This document shows positions 13,139 to 34,847 of a DNA stretch of 35,545 bases, one piece after another. Source of the DNA: Flavobacteriales bacterium (GTDB lineage Bacteria > Bacteroidota > Bacteroidia > NS11-12g > UBA955); assembly GCA_947487055.1 (NCBI GenBank), contig CANKVN010000016.1, positions 1-35,545 on the forward strand. Reading direction: 5' to 3'. A program made the translations under genes and the position numbers. Each line of letters begins with the position of its first letter. Position 1 is the first letter of the stretch. The notes under the pieces are model-generated. The model saw nothing but the letters and a program-made list of their open reading frames with translations, did not search any database and had not been told where the DNA came from.

Positions 13139-15601
13139 TCAATTCTCCCCCACATATTCCCTGGGCACGCGTGCAGAAATTCCCGTAAGGATCTCATAGG
13201 GAATGGTATCCGCACATACGGCCATTTGTGCTACGGTATTTTCGGCGCCAAATACAATGACTTCATCGCCTTCGCGGCAGTCAATGCCCGTTACGTCCAC
13301 CATGCACATGTCCATACAAACATTGCCTACGATAGGTGCTTTTTGGCCTTTTATTAAAACATTCCACTTCCCATTGCCCAGACTGCGCCGCAACCCATCG
13401 GCATAGCCAACCGGCAGCGTTGCTATGCTGCGGGCATTTTTGGAAACCGCTTTTCTTCCATAACCAACCCCTTCCCCGGCTTGCAGGGTATGAATCTGAG
13501 ATATGGTGGTATACAACGAAGTAACCGGCTTTAAATCTGCAGCCCTCTCGTTTCTGGGATCTACCCCATACAAACCAACACCCAGCCGCACCATATCCAT
13601 GCTGCTGCCCGGGAAACGCAAAATACCACCGGTATTCAATGCGTGACGCAGCGGTGCATATCCCAGTTGAACCTCAAGCGCATTGGCAGCTTCAGTAAAT
13701 GCGGCTATTTGTGACCGGGTAAAATCATCCTGTGCCGGATCTTCTGATGCCGCAAGATGGGTAAACAACGATGCCACACGCACCCCGGAAGGTATGAGCC
13801 CTGCGATATCTTTAATGGCTGCAGAACTAAAACCCAGCCGATGCATGCCGGTATCCAGCTCTAAATGCACGGTAATGGAAGCCGTAGCTGCAACCTTCGC
13901 ATATTCCTGCAATCCGGCCTCATCAAATACCACCGGCTCCAGTTGATAATGCAAACGCGTGGCAATATCTGCAGGAGTCGTGTTCATCACCATAATTGGA
14001 ACCTTAATCCCTGCTTCGCGCAGCGCAACACCTTCATCGGCAAATGCTACAGCCAGATAATCCACGCCCATATATTGCAGGGTGCGTGCCACTTCAAAGC
14101 TACCACTTCCATAGCCAAAGGCCTTAACCATGGCCATGATGCGGGTTTGCTGTGGTACATATTCCCTAAAAAAACGGTAATTGTACCTCAAAGCATCTAG
14201 GTCTATCTTCAGGTGGGTTTTGTGCAATTGCTTTTTCAGCAATGCATGCACTTGCTCCAACTGAAACCTGCGCGAGCCTTTAACCAGAATGGCCTTATCG
14301 GAAAGCCCATGCAGCAATCCGGAGGCCAGTAGTTCTTTGGTATCGGTAAAAAAAGCAGTCTCGAAACTGGTGAACAATTCCGGAAACCTTGAAAAATCCG
14401 AACCCACGGCAACCAACTGTTTTACCCCCTTCTGAAGCAGGATACCCGCTATTTTTGAAGCCAGGCGGTGCTTATCAGGATCGCTTTGATCCATATCGCT
14501 CAAAATAACACAGGCCGGTTTATCGGGCTGCTGCCGTATAAGAAAATCCAGTGCAACCTGCAGGCTGTCAGGGTCATTGCTGTAGCTGTCGTTTACCACA
14601 TAATTGCCATGGTTCCCTTCTGTAAAACTTAGCCTGTTTTCAAGCGGTTCCAGGTGACACATGGCTTCCACATGGGCCTGGTCCCAACGCTCAACGGCTG
14701 CCAGTGTGCACAGGCAACTCATGGCATTTTCGGTAGAAGCCACATCCGAAAACGGGATTTCCAGCATGTGTGTGCTACCCCTGTGTATAAATTGAATCTG
14801 GGTTTGACGGGATTGATAATCCTCTTTTATAATGTGGTAAGCATTGGATTCATTCCTGCCCCATGCAATCCATTTTGTGAGTGGCTGAGAAGCTTTGTAA
14901 GCATTTACCGCAGTGCGAATTTCATGGGAATCACCCGGAAAAACCACCACATCAGCATCGCGGAAAAGAATGGCCTTTTCATTGGCTTTTTGCTGCCTGC
15001 CGGAAAATCCTTCATCGTGGGCACTGCCCAAATGGGTGCAAACAACAAGGTTTGGATGTATCATCTGCCACAGTTTTTCCATTTCTCCGGGTTTGGAAAT
15101 CCCCGCCTCGATGATGGCCATGGTATGCCAGGGCTCAATACCCAGGATGGATATGGCTACGCCTATCTGCGAATTGTAGCTCCGTGGACTTCGGTGTGCT
15201 TTAAATTCATTGCCCAATAATTGAAAGAGCCATTCTTTAACAATGGTTTTTCCATTGCTTCCCGTAATTCCGATTACCGGTCCGGAAAAAGTCCTGCGGT
15301 GATGCGCCGCCAGGGTTTGCAAGGCTTGCAAAACATTATCAACTTTGATGATATTGGCATCCGCTAAACCTGAGGTATCTGCCGTTGCAGGCACCACAAA
15401 ATTGCGGACCCCGAGCGCCCTAGCTGTTTTCACAAACTGCACACCATTTCTTGCAGCACCAGGAATGGCAAAAAACAAGGCCTGCGAGGCCTGCCCAATG
15501 GTTCTGGTGTCAAAAACGGGTTGGGTTACCACGCAGGAAGCATCGGAGAAATGGGCCTCTCCACCAATAATTTCGGCAATTTCCTGAATGGTATAATGCA
15601 T
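13139..15601 (-). CDS. murF-alr: Bifunctional UDP-MurNAc-tripeptide:D-Ala-D-Ala ligase / alanine racemase
   Basis: An 820-residue fusion. Residues 1-455 are MurF, which adds D-Ala-D-Ala to UDP-MurNAc-tripeptide. They carry the Mur ligase N-domain, ATP loop GITGSNGKTIVKEW (K118), EAGISKPGEM (165-174), and the C-domain motif VNDSYSNDPDSL (336-347). Residues about 460-820 are PLP-dependent alanine racemase, with Schiff-base K493 in MVKAFGYGSG and catalytic Tyr714 in GVGYGRK. The domain border falls near base 14224. The usual second threonine of GKTT is Ile here. The fusion couples D-alanine supply to its use and is a known Bacteroidota arrangement. It starts two bases after the nucleotidyltransferase stop, in a run with tilS. 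Confidence 0.97.
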   Translation of the reverse strand: MHYTIQEIAEIIGGEAHFSDASCVVTQPVFDTRTIGQASQALFFAIPGAARNGVQFVKTARALGVRNFVVPATADTSGLADANIIKVDNVLQALQTLAAHHRRTFSGPVIGITGSNGKTIVKEWLFQLLGNEFKAHRSPRSYNSQIGVAISILGIEPWHTMAIIEAGISKPGEMEKLWQMIHPNLVVCTHLGSAHDEGFSGRQQKANEKAILFRDADVVVFPGDSHEIRTAVNAYKASQPLTKWIAWGRNESNAYHIIKEDYQSRQTQIQFIHRGSTHMLEIPFSDVASTENAMSCLCTLAAVERWDQAHVEAMCHLEPLENRLSFTEGNHGNYVVNDSYSNDPDSLQVALDFLIRQQPDKPACVILSDMDQSDPDKHRLASKIAGILLQKGVKQLVAVGSDFSRFPELFTSFETAFFTDTKELLASGLLHGLSDKAILVKGSRRFQLEQVHALLKKQLHKTHLKIDLDALRYNYRFFREYVPQQTRIMAMVKAFGYGSGSFEVARTLQYMGVDYLAVAFADEGVALREAGIKVPIMVMNTTPADIATRLHYQLEPVVFDEAGLQEYAKVAATASITVHLELDTGMHRLGFSSAAIKDIAGLIPSGVRVASLFTHLAASEDPAQDDFTRSQIAAFTEAANALEVQLGYAPLRHALNTGGILRFPGSSMDMVRLGVGLYGVDPRNERAADLKPVTSLYTTISQIHTLQAGEGVGYGRKAVSKNARSIATLPVGYADGLRRSLGNGKWNVLIKGQKAPIVGNVCMDMCMVDVTGIDCREGDEVIVFGAENTVAQMAVCADTIPYEILTGISARVPREYVGEN

Positions 15602-23046: not shown

Positions 23047-23736
23047 ATGGGACTTTTTTCCAATCCAATTGTTTCACGCCTAAAGCGATTGATTTTTCGG
23101 CTGCTGATAGGGTTTATTGTACTCAGCTTTTTGTGGGTACTCGCCCTCAAATGGATTAACCCCACAACCACATTATTAATGAAATCCCGGGAGGGAAAAA
23201 CGCAGGACGGTATTGTCAAGGAATGGGTTCCAATTACCCAAATTTCCAGAAATATGCAACTGGCGGTTATTTGCGGAGAAGACCAAAACTATTGTCAGCA
23301 CTCAGGCTTCGATTTTAAAGCAATTAAGGCAGCGGCAGAACACAACATCAAAGGTGGAAAGAAGCGAGGCGCCAGCACCATCAGCCAGCAAACAGCCAAA
23401 AACGTGTTTTTATGGGAAGGCAGAAGCTGGATAAGGAAAGGACTAGAAGTGTGGTTTACTGCCCTCATTGAACTGGTTTGGGGCAAAGAACGCATCATGG
23501 AAGTGTACCTGAATGTGATAGAAACCGGAGATGGTCTTTTTGGGGTTGAAGCCGCAGCAAAATCCTATTACCGAACCACCGCAGCCAAACTCAACGCCGG
23601 GCAGGCCGCCCGCATTGCCGGTCTCCTTCCATGTCCGCAAACCTGTGGTCTATACAGTGCTTTTACCGCCCAGAGGGCCAACATTATCTATTATGCCATG
23701 ACACGGTATGGCATTCAGCTGGAGTACTTGAAATAG
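23047..23736 (+). CDS. mtgA: Monofunctional peptidoglycan glycosyltransferase (GT51)
   Basis: A 229-residue protein with one N-terminal helix (about 15-35) and a family 51 transglycosylase domain that polymerises lipid II into glycan strands on the periplasmic side. Catalytic Glu78 lies in [16 protein letters not shown]. The second conserved block is [18 protein letters not shown] (106-123), then [13 protein letters not shown] with the second glutamate, and [27 protein letters not shown] and [14 protein letters not shown] complete the signature. There is no transpeptidase domain, which separates it from class A PBPs. Length agrees with MtgA. It stands alone upstream of efp, which has its own promoter box. 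Confidence 0.95.
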
Positions 23737-23763
23737 GATAAACACTCCGTGCATTATTTGTCG

Positions 23764-23771
23764 TAAATTTG
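23764..23771 (+). promoter_or_regulatory. TAnnTTTG promoter box of the efp operon
   Basis: TAAATTTG matches the Bacteroidota -7 consensus exactly and ends 10 bases before the efp ATG, predicting a leader of only about seven bases. No clear -33 TTTG lies at standard spacing. Confidence 0.5.
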
Positions 23772-23781
23772 CACCACTATT

Positions 23782-24345
23782 ATGGCAACAACCCAGGATA
23801 TATCCAATGGCATGTTCATCCGCTACAATGGAGAACTCTGTCAGATCATTGAATGGCAACACCGCACACCCGGTAACCTACGTGCATTTTACCAGGCCAG
23901 AATGCGCCGTGTAAAAGATGGCAAACTGGCCGAAAACCGCTTTCGCAGCGGAGAAGAGGTTATTATTGTGCGTGTAGAAACACACGAACTGCAATACCTG
24001 TATGAAGAGGGAGACAGCTTCATTTGCATGAACAATGAAACTTACGATCAGGTTCCAATCCCTAAATTTATGTTTGGCGATGGCGCCAAATTCATGAAAG
24101 AAGGCGATGTGGTTTTGGTTTCATTCGAAGGCGAACTTCCCATCGGTGCGCAAGCGCCCTCACATGTGGTGCTGGAAGTTACCTACAGCGAACCCGGCGT
24201 TCGTGGAGATACCGCCACCAACACCCTTAAACCGGCCACCGTTGAAACAGGTGCAACCGTGATGGTTCCTCTTTTTGTGGAAACAGGCGAAAAAATAAAA
24301 ATCGATACACGCAGCGGCGAGTATGTTGAACGTGTAAAAGGTTAA
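23782..24345 (+). CDS. efp: Elongation factor P with Asn at the usual Lys tip position
   Basis: A 187-residue three-domain EF-P that relieves ribosome stalling at polyproline. The N-terminal KOW-like domain (1-62) begins MATTQDISNGMFIRYNGEL. The C-terminal OB domain carries the family signature YSEPGVRGDTATNTLKPATVETG, and the length is normal. The tip loop reads HRTPGNLRAF. Aligned with the E. coli loop KPGKGQAF, Asn32 occupies the position of the modified Lys34, where Pseudomonas has rhamnosylated Arg32. No Lys is present in the loop, so EpmA-type lysylation cannot occur at that site; Arg34 and Arg28 are the nearest basic residues. It leads a tight run with agmatinase 11 bases downstream. 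Confidence 0.95.
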   Translation: MATTQDISNGMFIRYNGELCQIIEWQHRTPGNLRAFYQARMRRVKDGKLAENRFRSGEEVIIVRVETHELQYLYEEGDSFICMNNETYDQVPIPKFMFGDGAKFMKEGDVVLVSFEGELPIGAQAPSHVVLEVTYSEPGVRGDTATNTLKPATVETGATVMVPLFVETGEKIKIDTRSGEYVERVKG

Positions 24346-24356
24346 TCCTACTTTCA

Positions 24357-25265
24357 TTGACACAAACACCATTTACCGTATTGTCGGCTGAGGATGGCTT
24401 TCTGGCCCTCCCGGAAGCGCATATGGCTGAATTCAGCAACGCTAAGGTCGTTATACAACAAATCCCCTACGAGCACACCAGTTCCTATATTTCTGGCAGC
24501 GACAAAGGCCCTGAAGCCATCGTGGCAGCCAGCCACTTTGTGGAATTTTACGACGAAGAACTGGATGTTGAAACCTACCGCAATGTTGGCATCGCCACCC
24601 TCGCTCCCATGGATTTCAGCAATGCGGTAGATGCAGCCGCTGTCCAAAAAATAAACGATCAAACTGCTGCCCTGCTTAAGGAAGGCAAGTTTGTGGTTTC
24701 CCTGGGTGCAGAACATACCGTTAGCCTGGGCTTTGTGCAGGCGCATCTTGAGCAATACCCAAACCTGAGTGTGCTGCAAATAGATGCCCACAGCGATTTA
24801 CGCTCCGAATACAACGAAAATCCTTATTCACACGCCAGCGTGATGGCCCGTGTGCATGATTTGGGTGTTCCTCTGGTGCAAGTGGGCATTCGTGCCCAGT
24901 GCAAGGAAGAGGCCGATTTACGCAAAGCTTCTTCCAATATTCACACCTGGTATGCACACCAGCTTTGGAATGATGATGCCTGGATTGATGCCTGTATTGA
25001 TCAGTTGAGCGACGAAGTTTACCTGACCATCGATGCGGACGGCTTTGACCCTTCTGTTTGCCCTGCAGTGGGCACAGCAGAACCTGGCGGTTTGTCGTGG
25101 ATGCAAGGTTGTAAACTCTTCCGCCGACTGGCAGAGCGCAAGAAAGTAGTGGGTTTTGACATTGTGGAGATTGCACCACGCGAAACCGACATCATTACCG
25201 AATTCAGCATGGCCAAAATGTGTTATAAAATCATTGGCTATTTAAGCACCAATAACCGCATTTAA
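24357..25265 (+). CDS. speB: Agmatinase (ureohydrolase family)
   Basis: A 302-residue member of the arginase/agmatinase family; agmatinase cleaves agmatine to putrescine and urea. All six manganese ligands are visible: His120 (LGAEHTVSLG), Asp143, His145 and Asp147 (QIDAHSDLR), and Asp226 and Asp228 (LTIDADGFDPS). The N-terminal block SDKGPEAIVAASHFVEFYDEE is agmatinase-like. The frame starts at TTG 24357, keeping an N-terminus of normal length; the first ATG (24423) would shorten it by 22 residues, just before the first strand. It lies 11 bases after efp and two bases before the cysteine desulfurase. Formiminoglutamase or guanidinobutyrase activity is a lesser alternative. Confidence 0.92.
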   Translation: MTQTPFTVLSAEDGFLALPEAHMAEFSNAKVVIQQIPYEHTSSYISGSDKGPEAIVAASHFVEFYDEELDVETYRNVGIATLAPMDFSNAVDAAAVQKINDQTAALLKEGKFVVSLGAEHTVSLGFVQAHLEQYPNLSVLQIDAHSDLRSEYNENPYSHASVMARVHDLGVPLVQVGIRAQCKEEADLRKASSNIHTWYAHQLWNDDAWIDACIDQLSDEVYLTIDADGFDPSVCPAVGTAEPGGLSWMQGCKLFRRLAERKKVVGFDIVEIAPRETDIITEFSMAKMCYKIIGYLSTNNRI

Positions 25266-25267
25266 CC

Positions 25268-26413
25268 ATGCAAAACAGAATCTACCTCGACAACGCGGCC
25301 ACCACACCCCTGGACCCCGAAGTGCTGGAAGCCATGATTCCGGTGATGCGCGATCTGTTTGGCAACCCCAGCAGTACCCACGGACATGGTCGCAAGGTGA
25401 AAGCCTTGATCGAAGAGGCCCGTGGTACCATTGCAAAATTGCTTAAATGCCAGCCATCAGAGATTTTTTTCACCAGCGGCGGTACCGAGGCCGACAACCT
25501 TGCACTGCGCAGCGCAGTGATGTACAAGGGTGTTAAAAACATCATCACCTCGGCCATAGAACACCATGCCGTGCTGCATACTGCAGAAGAACTCCACAAA
25601 TCGGGTATGGCAACCATGCACCTGGTGCAGCTGGATGAAAACGGTCATGTAAACCTTGCTCATTTGCAGGAATTACTCAATACTTTACCCAATAGCATGG
25701 TTAGCCTGATGCATGCCAACAACGAAATTGGCAATTTGCTCAATGTTGAGGCGGTTGGCAATGCGGCACACCAGTCAGGTGCACTTTTTCATTGCGATAC
25801 AGTGCAAACCATGGGGCATTATCCTTTTGATTTAAGCCTGGGAAATATCGATTATCTGGCAGCTGCCGCGCATAAATTCAACGGACCCAAAGGGGTTGGT
25901 TTTATTTACATGAATAAAGCCCACCGCTTGCCACCTCAAATTACCGGAGGAGCGCAGGAACGTGAAGTAAGGGGCGGAACAGAAAACGTATACGGAATTA
26001 TTGGCATGGCAAAAGCCTTGGAAATTTGCTACCGCGATATGGAAAAGAAGCGGCAACACATCCAGGGGTTGAAAGACCTGATGATGCAGTTACTGGAAGC
26101 AGAAATTCCTGGCATTGAATTCAATGGCGATTCGAAAGGAGCATGTTTGTATACGGTGCTTAGCACTTCATTCCCTCCAAGCGATAGCGGGAATATGTTG
26201 TTATTCAACCTGGATATTGCCGGAATCTCGGCCTCAGGCGGAAGTGCCTGCAGCAGCGGCAGCAACACCGGAAGCCACGTTATTGGAGCCATCAGGCCAA
26301 ATACCGACAGAACCACGGTGAGGTTCAGTTTCGGAAAATTCAATACCGAAGCCGACATACGCGCTGTGGTTGAAAAACTAAAAACCTGGTATTCTGCAGC
26401 AGTAGAGGCTTGA
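25268..26413 (+). CDS. Cysteine desulfurase (NifS/IscS family, class V aminotransferase)
   Basis: A 381-residue PLP enzyme that releases sulfur from cysteine as a persulfide for iron-sulfur clusters and thio-modified tRNA. The N-terminus IYLDNAATTPLDPEVLEAM is diagnostic. Further marks are FTSGGTEADNLAL (68-80), EHHAVLH (98-104), the PLP lysine K203 in AAAHKFNGPKG, and the sulfur-accepting Cys328 in SGGSACSSGS. The catalytic loop is of the longer IscS/NifS (group I) type rather than SufS. No iscU or other Fe-S scaffold gene is near, so a tRNA-thiolation or general role is equally possible. It begins two bases after speB, and its stop overlaps the next start. Confidence 0.95.
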   Translation: MQNRIYLDNAATTPLDPEVLEAMIPVMRDLFGNPSSTHGHGRKVKALIEEARGTIAKLLKCQPSEIFFTSGGTEADNLALRSAVMYKGVKNIITSAIEHHAVLHTAEELHKSGMATMHLVQLDENGHVNLAHLQELLNTLPNSMVSLMHANNEIGNLLNVEAVGNAAHQSGALFHCDTVQTMGHYPFDLSLGNIDYLAAAAHKFNGPKGVGFIYMNKAHRLPPQITGGAQEREVRGGTENVYGIIGMAKALEICYRDMEKKRQHIQGLKDLMMQLLEAEIPGIEFNGDSKGACLYTVLSTSFPPSDSGNMLLFNLDIAGISASGGSACSSGSNTGSHVIGAIRPNTDRTTVRFSFGKFNTEADIRAVVEKLKTWYSAAVEA

Positions 26414-29663: not shown

Positions 29664-32600
29664 TTGATAAGGCTAACTGTTAAAATTATTGCACTTGTTG
29701 CAACAATGGCTTTCATGCTTCAGGTCTCGGGTCAATCAAACCCCGTGATTAGGCTGAAAACAGGGGATATTCAGGTATCTGAAAAATCCATTGTCCCCCA
29801 AATTACCAATAGCAATGGTTACTTTACGTCCTTTGTAACCTTCACCAAAATGCCAGATGCTGCCACCAAAAAGGCTTTGGACAGCATTGGAATTGCATTG
29901 CTGGATTACCTTCCGGACAACACCTGGTATGCAGAAATACCGCAATCCCTTGCAGGTGTAAACCTCAGCAATTATTCTGTTATGGCAGTTCAGCCCCTGC
30001 AAAAGGAATGGAAAACCCAAATAGCCATTTGGGCAAACGGAGGTCCTGAATGGGCGCGCAATGCCGCATTCCCAGGCTGGAGTGAATGTGTAATTTCACT
30101 CAATGGCAACCACCGATATGCAGACCTCAAAACAACCCTGGAGGCCCAGGGATTTGTGGTTAACCAGCATCTTCCCCATTTCAAAACTGTGCAGGTAAAG
30201 TTTCCCATTGCCAAACTGGATGATTTACTCAAAACAGAGGGCTATTACTGGATGGAGCCCATACCTCCTCCGGCGGAAATGCACAATTTCCCCGGCCGTG
30301 TAAACCACCGCGCGCTTACCCTCAATTTTGCCCGTCCAGGTGGCCGGAATCTATGGGGAAAAGGCGTAACCATTGGCGAATGGGATGGTGCCGGAGCAGG
30401 CAGCCATGAAGATTATAACGACCGTGTAATCCTTAAAAATCGTTTTGTTGCCGGATCAAATGGAAACCACGCGACACACGTATGTGGAACCATTACCGGT
30501 GGTGGAATTATTGATCCCTATGGACAAGGAATGGCACCAAAAGCCAACCTGTTTACTTGGGATTTTTATGGCAATATCGCCGCTGAAATGGATACAGCCG
30601 CTTTCAGGGACAGCATCGTAATGACCAACAATTCCTACGGCTATGGATCAGACCCCTGCATTACCAGAGGCAATTATGACGGCGTTAGCCGCAATCTGGA
30701 CATACTGGTGAGCATGTATCCATACTTAAGCCATCAATTCAGTTCCGGCAATTCACGCAGTTCCAATTGCGCCACAGGCGGATATCGCACCATCAACAGT
30801 GGTTTTCAGGCTGCAAAAAATGTAATTACCGTGGGCGCTTTGCAGTTTAACGATGGCAACAGCACATTCCACAGCTACGGCCCCATGCTTGACGGACGGA
30901 TGAAACCCGATATCTGTGCTATGGGGGTGAATGTATATTCCACACTACCCTCAAACACCTATCAGGGCGGATGGAACGGAACTTCCATGAGTTGCCCCGG
31001 CGCCACAGGCACAATTGCATTGCTTCATGAACGTTTTAAACAAATCAATTCCGCCAAAAGACCATTAAATCATACCCTCAAAGCCATTGTTTGCAATACT
31101 GCCGACGATATTGGCAATGTTGGCCCGGACTATGCTTTTGGTTTCGGCCGAATCAATGCCGTGAGTGCCATGAAGGTGATGGAAGAAAAAACATACAAAG
31201 TGGACAGCGTAACCAATGGCAACAGCAGAACAGACACCATCTATGTGAAACCAGGTACTGCCCGCTTTCAAGTAATGCTGATTTGGGATGATATGTATGC
31301 CGCAGCCAGTGCTTCTCCCTCGCTGATCAATGACCTGGACCTGGAAGTTCAGGACAGTATCGGAAATGTGTATTTGCCATGGACATTGAACCCTGCATGT
31401 CATACCTGTTTGCCCATCCGCAAAAGAGACAGCCTCAACAATGCCGAGCAGTTCTACTTCGATAATCCCAAATCAGGAAAATGGGTTATCCGGGTAAAAG
31501 GCAAAGCCATAAGCACCAGCAATGAGGTATACACCATTACCCACAGCCAGATAAAAAATCATGTCAGGGTATCCTACCCCAATGGTTTTGAAAGCATGGT
31601 TCCACCAACTTCAACGGCTGCCCAGACCATTGCTTGGGACGCTTATGGAGCAACCGGTACCTACACCCTGGAATACAGCGCAGACAGCGGCATTACCTGG
31701 AACAATATCACCACCGGACTGGCCAGCAGCAACCGTTATTTTACCTGGAACAACGCACCCGCAACCCTGAATACCAAAAAAGCATTGATTCGCATTAAAA
31801 ATGGCAGTTTGAGCGATGTGAGCGATACCACATTCAATGTTTATTACAAAGCCAATCAACCCAATGGAATGACCTGCAGCAGCCAGGTTCACCTTTACTG
31901 GCCCAGAACAGTTGGAGCAGCATCCTACAGGGTATTACAAAGCATCAATTCCTATATGGAGCCGGTTGGTGTTACCAAAGACACCTTCTTTACAGTTACC
32001 GGTTTGGTAAACGGACGCACCTATTGGTTTTCCTTGGAAGCGATCGGAAACAAAGGAGAAATAGGGCCGCGATGCAATGGAAAATCCTTTACCCCATCAG
32101 CCACACCGGTTGCTCCGGCAATAACCACTGAACCATTATCCCAAATCATTTGTGCCGGCAACACCCTTCGGTTAATCAGCGCGGCATCCGGTACCGCCAG
32201 CATGGCAAAGCAGTGGCAGTTCAGCGCGGATAGCGGCAAGACATGGCAAAACATGGTTGGAAAAACCACAGATACCTTGTCCATTCCCAATTTCAGCTGG
32301 AGCCAGCGTGGTTTCCACTACCGTAACCGCTATGTAAATGCCTGCCTAAACCTTATCTACACCAAATCTGCTATCATTGGGGTGGATACCCAGGCAACGT
32401 TTAGCAGCCAGCCACTGGATCAATGGAAATGCGAAGGTGACTCTGTAAGCTGGACCGTGGGAGTTAACTCCGGCTTGAAGCCAAAACTGCAATGGCAAAG
32501 AAGCACCGACAACGGAACCACCTATACAAACCTTGCTGGAGACACCACCAATACCATCAAACGTCGCAACCTGGCTTTTTCAAACAACCGGGAGCGTTAC

Positions 32601-34847
32601 CGCTTATTGGCAACCAATTATTGTATCACCAATAAACCTACCAACGCTGCCATACTTACGGTAAAACCACCATTGCGGTTGAAATTGCCAAATGACACCA
32701 CCATTTGTAAAGGAAATGCCCTAAACCTCATTGCTGCAGGAACAGGTGGTGACAGCACACGGTATCTATTCCAATGGCAGGGATTTGCTGGAGGAAACAA
32801 AATAACAATTGCGCCAACAACCAGAATTGTATACCGGATGGTGCTGGATGATCAATGCACTTTTTATGATGCAAAAGATTCTGTGGTTGTGGATGTGAGG
32901 GCTCCGCTTACCTTAAAAACAAGCAGGGATACTACTTTGTGTCTCGGACGCAGCGCCACTTTGTCGGCAATATTGCAAGGCGGACTTCCTTCGGGATACC
33001 GCTATTTGTGGAAACCGGGAAATATTACCACGGGAACCTACGTGATAACACCAAACAGCAACACCAATTATACCATCACTGCGGTAGACGGCTGCACCCC
33101 GGATACCCTAACAGCAACCATAAAAGTTAACGTTAGGGCGGCTTTGGATATAACCAGCAACAACGATACTTTGATTTGTTATGGTAATTCTGTAAACCTG
33201 AAAACTACAGCTACCGGCGGTTTGGTCTCGGCCAGTACCATCACATGGAACAACGGCCTTGGATTGGGTTCCAGCAAAATGGTTTCACCAAAAAGCAAAA
33301 CCACCTACAGGGCCATTCTGGCTGATGGATGCACCGTTAAAAACGACACCGCATTTGTAATTGTGGATGTGAGGGCGCCATTAACATTGAAACTGCTAAG
33401 AGACACCACCCTGTGCATGGGAAGAAGCACAGACCTAAACGCAATTGCTGCAGGTGGTTTGAGTACAGCTTATACCATCAATTGGAACCAGGGACTGGGA
33501 ACCGGAACAAGCCAGCTTGTAACCCCGTCCGCAACCACGATTTATCAGGCTATCCTGAGCGATGGCTGTACGGTTAAATCAGACACCCAAAAAGTAACTG
33601 TAACGGTGCGACCTGCACTGAAAATCAGTGTGAACAAAGACACCACATTGTGTTACGGAAACCCCATAACCCTCGCCGGGATTGCACTTGGAGGCAATGG
33701 CCTTTACCAGTATCGTTGGGAAGATATTGCCAACCCGTTGTCACCGCTGGGAACTTCATCCACCCTCAACCTGAGCCCAACCAACACCTTGAAAGTTCGG
33801 ATAGTATTGTCCGACGGATGCACGATTAAAAACGATACCGGAAGTTTAACGATTAATGTTCTGCAAGACCTTAGCATCAGCACTTCTGCTGATACCGCCA
33901 TTTGTGTTGGTGACCTTGCAAACCTGCGTGTGAAAGCAAACGGAGGTAAGGGCGTTTACCAATATACCTGGACAGACTTGTCCGACAACAGCAACGCCGG
34001 GACCACTGCAACCATCGCTGTATCGCCCAACAGTACCAGAAACTATCGCATTGCAGTTACGGATGGTTGCACCATTACCAAACCGGTAAAAAACATCAAC
34101 ATACAAGCAGTAGCAAAACCCCTGGCAACACTTTTTCTGCCCTACACGGAGGTGTGCAGTCCGGGGGTGTTTACCATCAAAAACAACAGTTCCAATGCAG
34201 CGCGCTATTTGCTCAACAACCGGGGCTATAGCGGAAAAGACACTACATTAAAACTGGCCATTGGCAGCTATTCCATAGCTTTGAGCGCATTTAACAGCCT
34301 GGGCTGCATGGATACAGCATCCTACTCTCTGGTGATGCATCCAAAACCCAAAGCTGGCTTTGGGTTTTCGCCCATTGCTCCAAGAGAATTACAACCGGTA
34401 ACCTTTTCTGATCAAAGTTCGGGAGCCAGCACCTGGAGCTGGAATCTGCCGCATGGAAACTACACTACACAGCAGCCCCCTACCTGGGTTTCCAATGATA
34501 CCGGAACATGGGTGTTACAGCAAATTGTGGGAAACAGCTTCAACTGCTACGATACCCTCAACCGCATAATCCGTGTGGGAATTGGTTATTACCTGCACAT
34601 ACCAACGGCTTTCAGCCCCGACAATAATGGGATAAATGAAGTATGGAAACCCGCCATGCGTGGGGTGAAATCTTACCAGTTGCGTATTTTCAACCGCTGG
34701 GGTCAACTGGTATTTAAAACAGACAACCCGCAGGCCGGATGGAATGGTGAAGGGGCGCCGCAGGGAACTTATGTTATCGAACTCAGCCTGATAAACGCCT
34801 ACGATGAGCGCGTCAGCGAAAAAGGAACCATTACGCTGATTCGTTGA
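29664..34847 (+). CDS. Giant secreted subtilase with tandem beta domains and T9SS type B sorting domain
   Basis: A 1727-residue protein. The signal peptide (1-23) follows a TTG start. A prodomain-like region precedes an S8 protease with Asp241 (IGEWDGAG), His269 (GNHATHVCG) and Ser441 (NGTSMSCPG). A P-domain-like beta sandwich follows at about 500-640, then an FN3-like domain at about 732-815. Two Ig-like domains come next, at about 815-910 and 911-1000. Six tandem repeats of 78-84 residues span 1004-1486, followed by a PKD-like domain at about 1555-1640. The C-terminus from about 1642 (HIPTAFSPDNNGINEVWKP, LRIFNRWGQLVFKTD, PQGTYVIELSLI) is the gliding-motility-associated CHU_C domain that directs type IX secretion. 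It should be exported across the outer membrane and attached or released. Its stop overlaps the convergent kinase by 17 bases. Confidence 0.95.
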   Translation: MIRLTVKIIALVATMAFMLQVSGQSNPVIRLKTGDIQVSEKSIVPQITNSNGYFTSFVTFTKMPDAATKKALDSIGIALLDYLPDNTWYAEIPQSLAGVNLSNYSVMAVQPLQKEWKTQIAIWANGGPEWARNAAFPGWSECVISLNGNHRYADLKTTLEAQGFVVNQHLPHFKTVQVKFPIAKLDDLLKTEGYYWMEPIPPPAEMHNFPGRVNHRALTLNFARPGGRNLWGKGVTIGEWDGAGAGSHEDYNDRVILKNRFVAGSNGNHATHVCGTITGGGIIDPYGQGMAPKANLFTWDFYGNIAAEMDTAAFRDSIVMTNNSYGYGSDPCITRGNYDGVSRNLDILVSMYPYLSHQFSSGNSRSSNCATGGYRTINSGFQAAKNVITVGALQFNDGNSTFHSYGPMLDGRMKPDICAMGVNVYSTLPSNTYQGGWNGTSMSCPGATGTIALLHERFKQINSAKRPLNHTLKAIVCNTADDIGNVGPDYAFGFGRINAVSAMKVMEEKTYKVDSVTNGNSRTDTIYVKPGTARFQVMLIWDDMYAAASASPSLINDLDLEVQDSIGNVYLPWTLNPACHTCLPIRKRDSLNNAEQFYFDNPKSGKWVIRVKGKAISTSNEVYTITHSQIKNHVRVSYPNGFESMVPPTSTAAQTIAWDAYGATGTYTLEYSADSGITWNNITTGLASSNRYFTWNNAPATLNTKKALIRIKNGSLSDVSDTTFNVYYKANQPNGMTCSSQVHLYWPRTVGAASYRVLQSINSYMEPVGVTKDTFFTVTGLVNGRTYWFSLEAIGNKGEIGPRCNGKSFTPSATPVAPAITTEPLSQIICAGNTLRLISAASGTASMAKQWQFSADSGKTWQNMVGKTTDTLSIPNFSWSQRGFHYRNRYVNACLNLIYTKSAIIGVDTQATFSSQPLDQWKCEGDSVSWTVGVNSGLKPKLQWQRSTDNGTTYTNLAGDTTNTIKRRNLAFSNNRERYRLLATNYCITNKPTNAAILTVKPPLRLKLPNDTTICKGNALNLIAAGTGGDSTRYLFQWQGFAGGNKITIAPTTRIVYRMVLDDQCTFYDAKDSVVVDVRAPLTLKTSRDTTLCLGRSATLSAILQGGLPSGYRYLWKPGNITTGTYVITPNSNTNYTITAVDGCTPDTLTATIKVNVRAALDITSNNDTLICYGNSVNLKTTATGGLVSASTITWNNGLGLGSSKMVSPKSKTTYRAILADGCTVKNDTAFVIVDVRAPLTLKLLRDTTLCMGRSTDLNAIAAGGLSTAYTINWNQGLGTGTSQLVTPSATTIYQAILSDGCTVKSDTQKVTVTVRPALKISVNKDTTLCYGNPITLAGIALGGNGLYQYRWEDIANPLSPLGTSSTLNLSPTNTLKVRIVLSDGCTIKNDTGSLTINVLQDLSISTSADTAICVGDLANLRVKANGGKGVYQYTWTDLSDNSNAGTTATIAVSPNSTRNYRIAVTDGCTITKPVKNINIQAVAKPLATLFLPYTEVCSPGVFTIKNNSSNAARYLLNNRGYSGKDTTLKLAIGSYSIALSAFNSLGCMDTASYSLVMHPKPKAGFGFSPIAPRELQPVTFSDQSSGASTWSWNLPHGNYTTQQPPTWVSNDTGTWVLQQIVGNSFNCYDTLNRIIRVGIGYYLHIPTAFSPDNNGINEVWKPAMRGVKSYQLRIFNRWGQLVFKTDNPQAGWNGEGAPQGTYVIELSLINAYDERVSEKGTITLIR
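32673..34120 (+). repeat. Six tandem beta-domain repeats inside the T9SS protease
   Basis: Six head-to-tail units begin at about 32673, 32907, 33144, 33381, 33618 and 33870 (78, 79, 79, 79, 84 and about 84 residues). Each follows the same plan: L-x-I/L-x opening, DTT-I/L-C near residue 10, a GG turn near residue 25, a W or equivalent, a TxYR-like strand, then DGCT and a VxVRA/P exit. Units 2-4 are the most alike (openings LTLK or LDIT, exits VRAP or VRAA). The conserved Cys pair in each unit suggests a disulfide. Confidence 0.9.

Follow-up and report, generated by a model that had tools for sequence, protein, structure and literature searches.

An asparagine-tip elongation factor P in a Flavobacteriales genome and the exchange of its loop block across Bacteroidota

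The efp locus and the tip of the loop

The window, by which we mean the whole analysed stretch of 35,545 nucleotides, carries the efp gene for elongation factor P (EF-P) at positions 23782..24345 of the forward strand. EF-P is a helper protein that eases ribosomes across proline runs, and its textbook tip is a lysine or arginine that has been chemically extended. Here the reading frame encodes an intact, full-length EF-P of 187 amino acids, whose translation reads ...EWQHRTPGNLRAFYQ... through the loop. It scored 228.3 bits in the profile search with TIGR00038 (cut-off 185.8), includes all three Pfam EF-P domains (KOW, OB and C-terminal) and retains the GDT motif, which is described in PMC11611912 as reading the E-site codon.

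The tip loop, TPGNLRA (23866..23886, forward strand), comprises seven residues (29-35) in a beta3-omega-beta4 arrangement, with its limits taken from an AlphaFold model that was built from 48 Asn-type sequences and reached a mean pLDDT of 88.6. The strands of this model run up to residue 28 and again from residue 36, Asn32 lies at the centre of the loop, and the best fold matches are EF-Ps. In the alignment, Asn32 pairs without gaps with the tip residue of solved EF-Ps, which is Lys34 in the E. coli protein. The loops of the solved proteins read HVKPGKGAAF (1yby), HVKPGKGPAF (6s8z), HQKLGRGGAK (T. thermophilus, 1ueb) and HVKPGKGSAF (6rji). The original prediction that asparagine occupies the modification-site position is thus borne out, and no lysine or arginine aligned at the tip. 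A misalignment, in which the true tip is lysine or arginine and the asparagine merely adjacent, might be suspected from Arg34, which sits two residues from Asn32; the ungapped alignment with solved structures and the modelled loop centred on residue 32 refute it as firmly as is possible short of a solved structure, and we regard it as hardly credible.

The asparagine cannot be attributed to chance or sequencing error, since the same loop occurs in all other six genomes of the genus, and since the peptide HRTPGNLRAF was found at 119 loci with 106 distinct DNA spellings. This diversity of spelling also indicates strong selection on the peptide itself.

By its PGN loop, with an Asn tip and proline at position -2, the protein belongs to the Asn type. 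It differs from the beta-lysylated (EpmA) type, which has a Lys tip, from the rhamnosylated (EarP) type, which has an Arg tip and no proline at -2 (here Asn32 and Pro30), and from the 5-aminopentanol type of B. subtilis, which has Lys32 at the tip. The EfpL/YeiP type has an extended loop with an Arg tip; the window EF-P has the seven-residue loop and gave 107-109 bits with the corresponding models against cut-offs of 216 and 264.

Copy number, modifying enzymes and gene neighbourhood

In the source genome (2.34 Mb, 95% complete) two profile models found no second efp, so this EF-P is single and there is no second canonical copy that could carry the main function. The search for epmA proposed in the original prediction gave nothing over cut-off in the source genome or in the 107 others of its order, the E. 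coli control passing as it should. Strong full-length matches to the EpmA model fall in reading frames of about 500-600 residues, and therefore fit lysyl-tRNA synthetase. The result was the same in a set of 36 genomes that spans the phylum and covers Lys-, Asn-, Arg- and mixed-type EF-Ps, again with a working E. coli control, so that EpmA is missing from the Lys-type Bacteroidota tested as well. EpmB was not detected over cut-off in any of 20 genomes, and the epmA plus epmB pair of the beta-lysylated type was not found in the source genome. As for earP, whose product acts on an Arg tip, no match appeared in the 108 genomes of the order or in 22 chosen ones, which is a weak negative as no control genome matched either.

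The gene next to efp encodes an agmatinase (TIGR01230; 24357..25265, forward strand), which starts 11 bases after the efp stop, and the two genes probably form one operon. The order efp, agmatinase, cysteine desulfurase is kept across the order with Asn or Lys tip alike, which rules out the neighbourhood as a pointer to a modifying enzyme. In close relatives the longer arrangement of mtgA, efp, agmatinase and cysteine desulfurase (23047-26413 in the window) is kept, and the sister family keeps the part from efp to the desulfurase.

Adjacency to agmatinase nevertheless invites the idea that a deoxyhypusine-synthase-like protein adds a polyamine group to EF-P. A PF01916 protein was present in 29 of the 30 genomes searched, including the source genome (L229:2233-3276, contig C4), and it keeps the WGK motif, which we take to hold the catalytic lysine of deoxyhypusine synthase. 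That enzyme requires an acceptor lysine, which the tip of this EF-P does not offer; the protein could not act on the window EF-P in the known way, and we rejected it as the EF-P modifier. Moreover, it occurs with Asn- and Lys-type EF-Ps alike, and its scores stay far short of the cut-offs of all deoxyhypusine-synthase models, being similarly near to the homospermidine model. Such a modification is very improbable. Where EF-P has no tip lysine the protein must act elsewhere, and its true substrate is probably polyamines.

Distribution of tip types in Bacteroidota

Among 207 non-redundant Bacteroidota EF-Ps, taken from genomes and contigs of the phylum, the tip was Asn in 122, Lys in 79, Arg in five and Gln in one; because the set was picked for diversity and closeness to the window, these proportions are no estimate for the phylum. 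The Asn tip is the commonest kind in this sample, which does not support its being a rare feature of the source genome, and the unusual tip loops that the original prediction mentioned for other Bacteroidota are indeed widespread across the phylum.

Within the source family EF-P was recovered from 65 of 70 genomes, and all copies carry HRTPGNLRAF except three, with HRTPGKGQAS (G056), HRTPGKGVAC (G001) and HRTPAKTRAF (G003). In the sister family, f57, HRTPGNLRAF is found in two genera (g186 and g187) and HTMPGKGGAF in most others. A DNA-pattern search of 158 genomes of the phylum detected both tip types in many families. The first, loose version of the pattern was discarded, as it gave random matches everywhere, and the stricter one used here still yields some chance matches, for example in G076 (locus L043, without EF-P).

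Several rarer loops were also seen. Four genera of family f3 (L223, L225, L226 and L228) have the Arg-tip loop NKTARAAAKV, without proline at -2. These proteins resemble the EarP-modified type; the EarP search gave no match there, with the control equally silent. Genome G406 has, besides a main copy of the Asn type, a second, divergent EF-P (L227) that is 30% identical to that of the window and has a Gln tip in the loop HAGSGQMQGF. Odd Lys-tip loops without glycine before the tip, HVTPNKTRAM, HITPNKAPAM and HRTPAKTRAF, occur at four loci (L109, L110, L111 and L218); three of the four have arginine two residues after the tip, and they look like mixtures of Asn and Lys types.

The coupled block and its exchange

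Asn32 does not stand alone. It proves to be part of a conserved block, Asn32-Leu33-Arg34 (23875..23883, forward strand), which is swapped elsewhere for Lys-Gly-x according to column counts and to independent pairs on a tree built without the loop columns. Every one of the 122 Asn-type sequences has Pro-Gly at residues 30-31. At position 33 the Asn types have Leu, Trp or Lys, whereas 75 of 79 Lys types have Gly there, and arginine occupies position 34 in 121 of 122 Asn-type sequences as against 4 of 79 Lys-type ones. The tip and positions 33 and 34 thus travel together, as N-L/W-R or as K-G-x. Of the two arginines named in the original prediction as possible substitutes for the modified residue, these counts favour Arg34. 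Other Asn-type loops have Val or His at position 28, which varies independently of the tip, and Arg28 was ruled out for this reason.

How often have the two blocks replaced one another? On the loop-masked tree, one of several quick trees of a single short protein, the tip labels require eight changes by parsimony, five of them forced by well-supported branches. Placing all Asn types on one side was rejected on a reduced set (p-AU 2e-88). A single switch is therefore excluded under the model used, the precise count of switches being uncertain. When the supported independent pairs are compared, positions 33 and 34 mostly shift together with the tip, and in no pair against it; such pairs number only five, too few for significance in a sign test. 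Across Bacteroidota, then, the Asn tip is common, repeatedly switched and tightly conserved, and not peculiar to the source genome.

The direction of some exchanges may be read from the residues around the tip. Lys-type sequences nested among Asn types retain Asn-type surroundings (HRTPGKGGAFY and HRTPGKGQASY), which suggests reversals from Asn to Lys there. Several genomes of family f2 have genes with both HRTPGNLRAF and HRTPGKGGAF, in tandem in G207 (L038) and G149 (L039), and as two copies in G191, G168, G283 and G432. These paralogues make up a single well-supported clade that includes the duplication, and the Lys copy seems to be the product of a duplication in a lineage of the Asn type.

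Discussion

The window EF-P belongs to a known class, which has been in the literature since 2010. Bailly and de Crecy-Lagard (2010, PMC2821294) gave Asn at the tip in 2.2% of organisms without EpmA/EpmB genes, Volkwein et al. (2019, PMC6544042) stated that an Asn tip always co-occurs with proline at -2, and the Asn tip was mentioned again in 2024 (PMC11611912). The proteins of the first two reports share with ours the Asn tip, the proline at -2 and the lack of an EpmA/EpmB pair. Their main-text descriptions give percentages, and do not include the N-L/W-R block, the coupling of Arg34, the exchange with K-G-x or the pairs of paralogues. Judged against these descriptions, the coupled block of three residues, its recurrent exchange and the presence of both types as paralogues in one genome seem to be new.

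Three known proteins are near to this EF-P in different respects. The actinobacterial EF-P (C. glutamicum, 6s8z) is close to it in sequence and fold, and the actinobacterial EF-P with the PGKGP loop is cited in PMC11611912 as functioning without tip modification (Pinheiro 2020). However, its tip is Lys and its PGKGP loop is stiff; this loop is common to many Lys-type Bacteroidota and absent from the Asn type. E. coli EfpL/YeiP (8S8U) has an unmodified tip, and a direct contact between its Arg and the CCA end has been proposed; its loop is two residues longer with Arg at the tip, whereas the window loop has seven residues with Arg two after the tip. In T. thermophilus EF-P (1ueb, 4v6a), the best fold match, the tip is likewise not lysine, but there Arg32 itself touches C75 and phosphates of 23S rRNA, as described in PMC2821294.

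On balance we lean towards regarding this protein as an ordinary, single EF-P of the Asn-tip class, which works without tip modification by known enzymes, with Arg34 and the shape of the loop standing in for the modified lysine. We infer that it is active and unmodified, and that it would relieve ribosome stalling at proline runs. The Asn-type loop stays at seven residues and supplies an arginine two positions past the tip, and Arg34 together with the loop shape would provide the contact with no modification needed. The exchange of N-L/W-R and K-G-x as a unit would explain the back-and-forth switching in evolution. Our literature search returned no biochemical or mass-spectrometric study of any Asn-type EF-P, and nothing on tip modification in Flavobacterium or Chlorobi. 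The K34N form of E. coli EF-P is inactive (PMC6544042), which means that putting Asn into a Lys-type loop is insufficient by itself.

The same mutant can be read in favour of two other explanations. One is that Asn32, Arg34 or Arg28 bears a putative post-translational modification by an enzyme yet undescribed. The extreme conservation of the loop with its nearly invariant Arg34 fits this idea, as Arg34 could alternatively serve such an enzyme, and unrelated modifications are reported to have arisen more than once in other EF-Ps (PMC6544042, PMC4739656). However, the neighbours of efp stay with either tip type and offer no candidate enzyme, the known enzymes were not found in the genomes searched for EpmA, EpmB and (with its silent control) EarP, and Asn-Leu-Arg is no standard glycosylation site. 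We consider such a modification quite unlikely. According to the other explanation the Asn-type EF-P is weak or specialised, and ABCF ATPases of the YfmR/Uup type or YebC-like proteins relieve most proline stalls, much as B. subtilis is reported to tolerate the loss of EF-P thanks to YfmR and YebC2 (PMC11990639). Against this, efp is strongly conserved and single-copy in intact assemblies (over cut-off in 64 of the 70 genomes of the source family), and there is no sign of stronger avoidance of proline runs in Asn-type cells: in a small sample of flanking genes, diprolines number 1.17 per 1000 amino acids near Asn-type efp and 0.96 near Lys-type efp. This explanation too is unlikely.

Beyond the preferred reading of an EF-P that works unmodified, a broader proposal is offered tentatively. 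The N-L/W-R loop might be a separate chemical solution, with Arg34 making an off-centre tip contact or with Asn32/Arg34 under an undescribed modification; lineages would switch between it and K-G-x, and some would keep both paralogues, possibly for different stall motifs. The E. coli protein fails as an EF-P when its lysine is swapped for asparagine, yet nature has made this swap several times along with the neighbouring residues. The coupled block is thereby a small, testable three-residue recipe for a modification-free EF-P, and the genomes with both loop types are a natural side-by-side comparison.

Among the proteins encoded in the window itself there are several diproline motifs and a single PPP. 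This PPP lies in a subtilase of 1727 residues (29664-34847, forward strand) that bears a CHU_C type IX secretion domain. On the reverse strand, a single reading frame (13139-15601) fuses a Mur ligase with an alanine racemase.
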